Below are positions 19,141 through 25,512 of a stretch of DNA of 64,000 nt, in pieces (position 1 is the stretch's first letter; the number at the start of each line of letters is the position of its first letter). The notes under the pieces were generated by a model that was given only the letters and a program-made list of their open reading frames with translations, searched no databases and was not told the DNA's origin. Source of the DNA: an uncultured Alphaproteobacteria bacterium (GTDB lineage: Bacteria; Pseudomonadota; Alphaproteobacteria; Rhodobacterales; Rhodobacteraceae); assembly GCA_902533625.1 (NCBI GenBank), contig CACAMI010000002.1:1-64000 (forward strand), read 5' to 3'. The position numbers and the translations under genes are program-made.

Positions 19141-19518
19141 ATGATATTTAGAATAATATTTCTTTCAATTTTTTTGGTTGGATTTGCATCTTGTAATTCG
19201 TCTGCACCAGTTCAAACAACAAATATGTCGAATATTATTGAGGATATTCCGATTGAGGGAGTAGCTGAGGATAATATTGAATTAATAGCTTTGAAGTTAG
19301 CTCCTAAGCCTAAATTGGGGCAACCAGAGCATGAATGTTTGGCAGAAACATTTTTATTTTTGATTGGCCAACCTAAAAGTGCGATTGCGGCAATTGAATA
19401 CCCATATAATACAAGGCTTTTTTATTTAGGTGAGGAGAAAGCTGAGGGGTTTGTTGCAAATAGATTGAATTTAATTTTAGATAATTCTGAAAAAATTGTT
19501 CAAGTCTATTGTGGTTAA
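19141..19518 (+). CDS. Small secreted lipoprotein resembling peptidase inhibitor I78 family
   Basis: Signal plus lipobox (FLVGFASC). The C-terminal half ECLAETFLFLIGQPKSAI...TRLFYLGEEKAEGFVANRLNLILDNSEKIVQVYCG matches the I78 pattern as I know it (GQP, RLNI.LD..G.I..V.CG). Confidence 0.65.
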   Translation: MIFRIIFLSIFLVGFASCNSSAPVQTTNMSNIIEDIPIEGVAEDNIELIALKLAPKPKLGQPEHECLAETFLFLIGQPKSAIAAIEYPYNTRLFYLGEEKAEGFVANRLNLILDNSEKIVQVYCG

Positions 19519-22377: not shown

Positions 22378-22379
22378 CC

Positions 22380-23267
22380 TTAAATTTTTGGTGGCTTAAG
22401 CTTAAATATTATATATTTATTATAAGTCATGAATAGTTGAGAAGTTCTGCCTTTATTAAATAATCGACTTTCCAAGTCTTTCCTACGCCTTTCTTTTAAA
22501 AAGAGCTTGTAGGACATCTTCAGTAGATAAAATAGTATATTTTTCTTTTCTTTTAATGATTTTGATAATCGTATTATTATTTCTCCAAAGGCATTAAATG
22601 TTTTCTGCTCTAGGTCTATTGAGGGTGCTACAGATTGTGTTATGTCCTTTCTATTTATTATTTTTAATGAAAATTTTACTAATTTTTCTTCCATTTCAGT
22701 TATACTGTGACCACCTCCAGGCTGACGGGTTTTAGATTTTTTGAAAGCTTCTGACCTAAAGCAATCAGATATCAATATTATACCTGTTTTGTTTAGAAGG
22801 GCAGACGCTTTTGGTAAAGAAATATCCATAGGTATGTATTGGAAGCTTTCAGAAAACAAACAGACGTCGTATAATTTTTTATTTTTGGGGATATAATCTT
22901 CAAAAATTGTCTGATATATATCTGCATTTCCTTTGGTAGTTTCTTTTGCTTCCTTTGCAAGCTCTTCACTTGGCACTATTATATCTACTTCGTGCCCTTT
23001 ATCTAAGAGTTTTTTTGCTGTTTCTCCTCCTCCTCCTCCAATATCAAGTATTTTCATGCTTTTCTTTTTAGGAAGATAATTGAACAAATTTTTAGTGTAA
23101 GCTTCCTGCGCTAAGCATAAATTTCCCATGGTAACCTCTAAGCCATCCCATATGCCATAGTGCAAGTTAGATTTTCCAGTTATTAATTTTGATAATATTA
23201 ATGCTATGTCCAGTCCTATAGACTGGGAAACATTTTGATCAGTATGAATTTGTTTAACGTTTTTCAT
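22380..23267 (-). CDS. Class I SAM-dependent methyltransferase, embedded in the mutagenesis cassette
   Basis: SAM motif I MKILDIGGGGGETAKKLLDKG, upstream LHYGIWDGLEVTMGNLCLAQEAYTKNL (tocopherol/UbiE-like MT lead-in), YDVCLFSESFQYIP and GIILISDCFRSEAFKK. The stop is 2 nt from the dnaE2 ATG. Confidence 0.8.
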   Translation of the reverse strand: MKNVKQIHTDQNVSQSIGLDIALILSKLITGKSNLHYGIWDGLEVTMGNLCLAQEAYTKNLFNYLPKKKSMKILDIGGGGGETAKKLLDKGHEVDIIVPSEELAKEAKETTKGNADIYQTIFEDYIPKNKKLYDVCLFSESFQYIPMDISLPKASALLNKTGIILISDCFRSEAFKKSKTRQPGGGHSITEMEEKLVKFSLKIINRKDITQSVAPSIDLEQKTFNAFGEIIIRLSKSLKEKKNILFYLLKMSYKLFLKERRRKDLESRLFNKGRTSQLFMTYNKYIIFKLKPPKI

Positions 23268-24998: not shown

Positions 24999-25013
24999 GT
25001 TCATGTTTTGTTC
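24999..25013 (-). promoter_or_regulatory. Predicted LexA (SOS) box GAAC-N7-GAAC upstream of imuB
   Basis: Plus strand gttcatgttttgttc; minus strand GAACAAAACATGAAC. Perfect match to the alphaproteobacterial LexA consensus GAACN7GAAC, 17-31 nt upstream of the imuB ATG in the 83-nt irr/imuB gap. Confidence 0.8.
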
Positions 25014-25065: not shown

Positions 25066-25512
25066 TTATTCTATTTCTTTGCTCAGTCTAATAATTATGT
25101 CTACCTTAGAAATTTTTGATCCTTTTGGAGCCTGTGGTAAATTTTTTATTTGAAAGTTATCTATTTTTGCATCAGTAAGCTCACCTGTATCTTCCCAAAA
25201 GAAATGGGGGTGATCATCTACTCTAGTACAAAAAAATTTTCTATTGGCATCAACTATGACTTCGCTTAAAAGTCCAGCACTACAGAAGCAATGCAAAGTA
25301 TTATAGACAGTAGCAAGAGACACATTTATATCACCCGCTCTGCACAAATCAAATAACTGTTCTGCGGTTATATGTTTGTGTTTACCATTTCCAACTAGGT
25401 ATTCAGCTATCTTAACTCTTTGCTTTGTTGGTTTAACGCTCGCTTTACTTAGCCATTGATTGGCTAACTTGTTTGGGTCAACATTTTTATTTTCAAATTT
25501 ATTAAGCATCAA
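25066..25512 (-). CDS. irr: Fur-family transcriptional regulator, Irr-like
   Basis: VKPTKQRVKIAEYLVGNGKHKHITAEQLFDLCRAGDINVSLATVYNTLHCFCSAGLLSEV...DDHPHFFWEDTGEL. Divergent from fabA-fabB-fabI, the syntenic context of irr in alphaproteobacteria. Confidence 0.8.
   Translation of the reverse strand: MMLNKFENKNVDPNKLANQWLSKASVKPTKQRVKIAEYLVGNGKHKHITAEQLFDLCRAGDINVSLATVYNTLHCFCSAGLLSEVIVDANRKFFCTRVDDHPHFFWEDTGELTDAKIDNFQIKNLPQAPKGSKISKVDIIIRLSKEIE

Follow-up and report, generated by a model that had tools for sequence, protein, structure and literature searches.

The closest described counterpart of the locus analysed here is the imuA-imuB-dnaE2 SOS cassette, in which the three genes are contiguous (PMC3323433, PMC6511836, PMC12926913). 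GTTC-N7-GTTC is the LexA motif of alphaproteobacteria, and the imu cassette is under LexA control (PMC3323433). The window, by which we mean the whole 64,000-nucleotide stretch of Rhodobacteraceae DNA that was analysed, shares with this cassette homologues of imuB and dnaE2 behind a GAAC-N7-GAAC box, and its genome also carries an imuA homologue under an identical 15-mer. It differs in that imuA lies elsewhere, a class I SAM methyltransferase gene stands between imuB and dnaE2, and the DnaE2 protein lacks the C-terminal OB fold. None of the literature hits inspected described a methyltransferase within an imu cassette.

The three genes follow one another on the minus strand of the window in the order imuB, methyltransferase, dnaE2. 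The imuB gene (24982-23324) codes for a 552-aa ImuB-type inactive homologue of Y-family polymerases, recognized by its Pfam IMS match (6e-10) and its syntenic homologues. After an AT-rich gap of 56 nt comes the methyltransferase gene (23267-22380), whose 295-aa product is a SAM-dependent enzyme of the small-molecule type with a helical extension at its C-terminus. The dnaE2 gene (22377-19531) encodes a 948-aa error-prone C-family polymerase, which scores 1108 bits against the NCBIfam error-prone polymerase model NF004225 (cut-off 939). A sequence-only reading had described an 888-nt class I SAM methyltransferase ORF at 22380-23267, on the same strand as imuB and dnaE2 and between them, with a TAA-GG-ATG junction to dnaE2. 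Its coordinates and spacing were right: stop and start codons are separated by the two nucleotides GG at 22378..22379 on the minus strand (junction TAAGGATGG). The ORF is intact and single-copy in the host genome (1.85 Mb, 75% complete). Upstream of imuB lies irr (25066-25512, minus strand), a Fur-family iron regulator gene (NF045678), followed divergently by fabA-fabB-fabI; on the other side, a 125-aa ORF and acs run convergently towards dnaE2. This lipoprotein-like ORF (window 19141-19518, plus strand), located after acs, has no Pfam match and its synteny is kept in relatives.

A putative LexA box, GAACAAAACATGAAC (24999-25013, minus strand), with the alphaproteobacterial sequence motif GAAC-N7-GAAC (equivalent to GTTC-N7-GTTC), is located 16 nt ahead of the ATG of imuB. 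The motif match alone is weak, since 1.1 perfect GTTC-N7-GTTC sites are expected per window by chance. The extended motif GAACAAANNNTGAAY has only two occurrences genome-wide, upstream of imuB and upstream of the imuA homologue; the two boxes consist of the same 15 bases, and the box upstream of imuB is conserved among relatives. No second LexA box was found between imuB and dnaE2, either in the window or in the same-genus relative L086, and no terminator-like site was found on the minus strand within imuB-methyltransferase-dnaE2. The single box before imuB and the lack of a terminator-like site make it most likely that the three genes belong together, probably as a single SOS operon. In L086, the methyltransferase and dnaE2 genes overlap by 11 nt, which together with the 2-nt gap of the window supports the coupling to dnaE2 suggested by the sequence-only reading. 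From this arrangement we infer co-transcription, SOS induction and translational coupling of the methyltransferase and dnaE2.

The arrangement differs in other lineages. A dnaE2-proximal LexA box is present in L087, L088, L090, L102 and L150, in all six of the six same-strand rppH-methyltransferase-dnaE2 loci, and, between methyltransferase and dnaE2, in most irr-acs loci outside the window genus and the L096 group, where it is also gone. The methyltransferase gene is outside the dnaE2 SOS unit in such loci, because the box stands between the two genes. The tight coupling of methyltransferase and dnaE2 would be a late, lineage-specific state, since in the window genus the intervening box has disappeared and the genes are 2 nt apart or overlap by 11 nt. 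A LexA box belonging to the methyltransferase itself was considered and rejected, as none is conserved upstream of the gene in rppH contexts. The box at loci where the methyltransferase is divergent from uvrB was likewise rejected as its own; it belongs to uvrB and is also present where the methyltransferase is missing. At these loci (L094, L092 and others), Rhodobacteraceae conserve the sequence GAACAAAAACNGATC upstream of uvrB, whether a divergent methyltransferase is present or not, and it is likely a LexA site whose second half is degenerate.

The imuA homologue (210 aa) is encoded on another contig (C6:3918-4550, minus strand; locus L199, genome G000), outside the window cluster, with the same LexA 15-mer 13 nt upstream. 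The imuA and imuB/dnaE2 loci thus look like a dispersed imu cassette sharing a single operator sequence. The sequence-only reading assumed that imuB and dnaE2 are normally adjacent. This fails for many roseobacter-type relatives: among 199 Rhodobacteraceae genomes compared, many with a DnaE2 of the window type carry imuB at a distance from dnaE2 or on another contig, and imuB stands there without imuA. Contiguous imuA-imuB-dnaE2 with a longer, OB-fold-bearing DnaE2 is found in other family members such as G198, and a Pfam comparison confirmed that the C-terminal OB fold (PF01336) is present in the 1156-aa DnaE2 of G198 and absent from that of the window. In the DnaE2 tree, a quick tree with long-branch warnings, the dnaE2 genes of the rppH locus are scattered, whether or not the methyltransferase accompanies them. 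In locus L183 (G045), imuB is divergent from gpmI-ctpA-rppH, so that this one cluster is flanked by imuB in some relatives and by dnaE2 in others.

The enzyme has a class I SAM core whose motif I (DxGxGxG) reads LDIGGGGGETA, with D75, G77, G79 and G81 invariant, an N-terminal HYG.W motif and an above-cut-off match to Pfam Methyltransf_23 (2.6e-7). A profile built from 28 orthologues gave AtmM (2.8e-14), RebM (9.8e-13), TleD and MitM as best matches. The AlphaFold model (mean pLDDT 91.3) resembles BezA, TleD, SpnF, RebM, AtmM and mycolic acid cyclopropane synthases (TM about 0.6, 13-20% identity), and the profile and fold similarity to the RebM/AtmM-type class covers most of the chain. The matched enzymes, among them AtmM, RebM, TleD, BezA, SpnF and the cyclopropane synthases, have small organic molecules, prenyl chains or lipids as substrates. 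The window enzyme shares the HYG.W motif and the class I core with the RebM/AtmM/TleD/BezA type and differs from it in its low identity, in a conserved rhodobacteral C-terminal region and in having no biosynthetic cluster around it. No NCBIfam equivalog reached its cut-off (UbiG 29.5 versus 102.95, CmoM 25.1 versus 366 and BioC 22.4 versus 184.95 bits). The possibility of a nucleic-acid methyltransferase was rejected: there was no significant match to tRNA, rRNA or DNA methyltransferase families, with CmoM and RsmA far below their cut-offs. Judged by this fold class (TM about 0.6, 13-20% identity), the substrate may be a small molecule of lipid, prenyl or sugar-like nature.

Orthologues of the methyltransferase (39-72% identity) are present in about 30 of the 199 family genomes, and most genomes with dnaE2 or imuB do without it. 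At 18 of these 30, it ends the Rhodobacteraceae gpmI-envC-ctpA-rppH cluster, without dnaE2 in 13 cases and, in five, with dnaE2 as the next gene downstream but no imuB; the window lineage differs in having the methyltransferase and dnaE2 at the irr-acs locus together with imuB. The imuB-methyltransferase-dnaE2 arrangement accounts for four orthologues, a position divergent from uvrB for three, a position before prmA-(X)-ruvCAB for three (one visible only as far as prmA) and other positions for two. The sequence-only reading had proposed tabulating the gene relative to imuB and dnaE2; it is indeed beside them in some relatives, but adjoins neither in 21 of the roughly 30 family genomes that carry it. 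Simple insertion of the methyltransferase into an imuB-dnaE2 pair does not explain the order, because the gene also adjoins dnaE2 where imuB is not nearby. A family of about 160 aa without Pfam match (L034:8542-9030 and relatives) often has its gene between rppH and either the methyltransferase or dnaE2.

A second sample of 80 methyltransferase loci from the GTDB collection comprised imuB-methyltransferase(-dnaE2) (17), irr-methyltransferase-acs (3), rppH-methyltransferase-dnaE2 on the same strand (6) or with dnaE2 convergent (1), rppH without dnaE2 (16), divergent uvrB with a box between (29), prmA (2) and unassigned loci (6). The methyltransferase tree, in which several rows are compositionally skewed and long-branched, has the rppH contexts close to its base and the irr-acs and uvrB contexts as nested clades, so that the rppH position looks like the oldest home of the gene. 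A profile search of 289 alphaproteobacterial genomes found strong orthologues in Rhodobacteraceae only, plus two remote relatives, and this confinement to one family led us to reject a class-wide conserved function. No pathway was shared by the genes around remote relatives (L173-L176, L062, L065), and a function read from these neighbours was likewise rejected.

The decisive comparison came from the irr-acs locus, as a natural deletion of imuB and dnaE2. In L093, L097 and L118, the order at the same site is irr-methyltransferase-acs, without imuB, dnaE2 or the LexA box, and irr is the direct neighbour of the methyltransferase. Neither dnaE2, imuB nor imuA was found elsewhere in these genomes, whose assemblies are incomplete but contain the syntenic locus in full; in G199, the one weak polymerase match resembles the replicative DnaE1. 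Loss of imuB and dnaE2 in these lineages seems the simplest reading, because the three loci nest (100/96) inside the clade of imuB-methyltransferase-dnaE2 (21 rows, support 100/100). The methyltransferase has remained under purifying selection there, with dN/dS of 0.09-0.11 against 0.07-0.14 elsewhere, which argues that its job needs neither ImuB nor DnaE2. In L091:6340-11730, frameshifts interrupt both imuB and dnaE2 around an open methyltransferase, owing to decay or to assembly error.

Because relatives that lost both mutagenesis genes keep the enzyme, it is most likely a bystander brought under DNA-damage control. The sequence-only reading had offered two guesses: a passenger now under SOS control, which agrees with the one box, none inside the unit and the 2-nt gap, and an accessory of the translesion synthesis complex, which the comparison does not support. 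If the enzyme served the ImuB-DnaE2 mutasome as an accessory factor, say by modifying a mutasome protein or damaged DNA, this would account for the tight spacing to dnaE2 within an SOS operon and for the recurrence of this adjacency at two loci. We nevertheless regard it as very improbable, given that the gene persists under selection where imuB and dnaE2 are lost, is widespread apart from both, is missing from most genomes that have them and belongs to a small-molecule fold class. A part in translesion synthesis is thus unlikely, and we infer that the enzyme has none. It is also rather doubtful that the methyltransferase lies outside the SOS unit, with its own promoter in the 56-nt gap and a position due to chance synteny. 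Relatives without imuB and dnaE2 must express it without SOS, and the gap is AT-rich, but no terminator-like site follows imuB, and the genes share a strand and short gaps up to the 2-nt junction with a dnaE2 that has no box of its own here.

A functional link might be read from the repeated neighbourhood of methyltransferase and dnaE2 (two loci) and from the positions next to uvrB and ruv, which speaks against a mere passenger. The enzyme might aid the damage response apart from the polymerase, through lipid, envelope or metabolite methylation, with adjacency to LexA-controlled genes being selected. Three kinds of DNA-repair neighbours fit this proposal: dnaE2/imuB, divergent uvrB (29 of 80 loci, box between) and prmA-ruvCAB. 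Against it, the uvrB box is found without a neighbouring methyltransferase, the box follows the methyltransferase in rppH-methyltransferase-dnaE2 loci, the irr-acs locus has no box upstream of the gene once imuB is lost, and the uvrB and prmA contexts are each confined to one part of the tree; we hold it to be unlikely. That small-molecule methylation was recruited because it aids survival, explaining the repeated adjacency to imuB, dnaE2 and uvrB, seems to us hardly more than a slight chance. We consider it probable that the methyltransferase is a small-molecule passenger, read together with imuB and dnaE2 as one LexA-repressed operon.

The probable history of the passenger starts with a rhodobacteral small-molecule methyltransferase that closes the gpmI-envC-ctpA-rppH cluster; in several lineages it already stands there upstream of dnaE2, from which a LexA box belonging to dnaE2 separates it. 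In the window's marine lineage, methyltransferase and dnaE2 lie at the irr-acs locus, beside imuB, and in the window genus the separate dnaE2 box is gone, leaving the two genes nearly touching. A single LexA-repressed operon is the most likely outcome because that separate box is gone and the genes nearly touch; dnaE2 translation would be coupled to the methyltransferase, and DNA damage, through LexA cleavage, would co-induce the latter.

The comparison cautions against reading a DNA-repair function into tight gene spacing in an SOS operon, which is weak evidence for it. For the marine Rhodobacteraceae, it appears to show an SOS mutagenesis cassette coming apart and being rebuilt: imuA, imuB and dnaE2 were dispersed, dnaE2 was paired with an unrelated metabolic gene, and imuB then joined the pair. 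In streamlined relatives, imuB and dnaE2 seem to have been lost, and the passenger methyltransferase stays.
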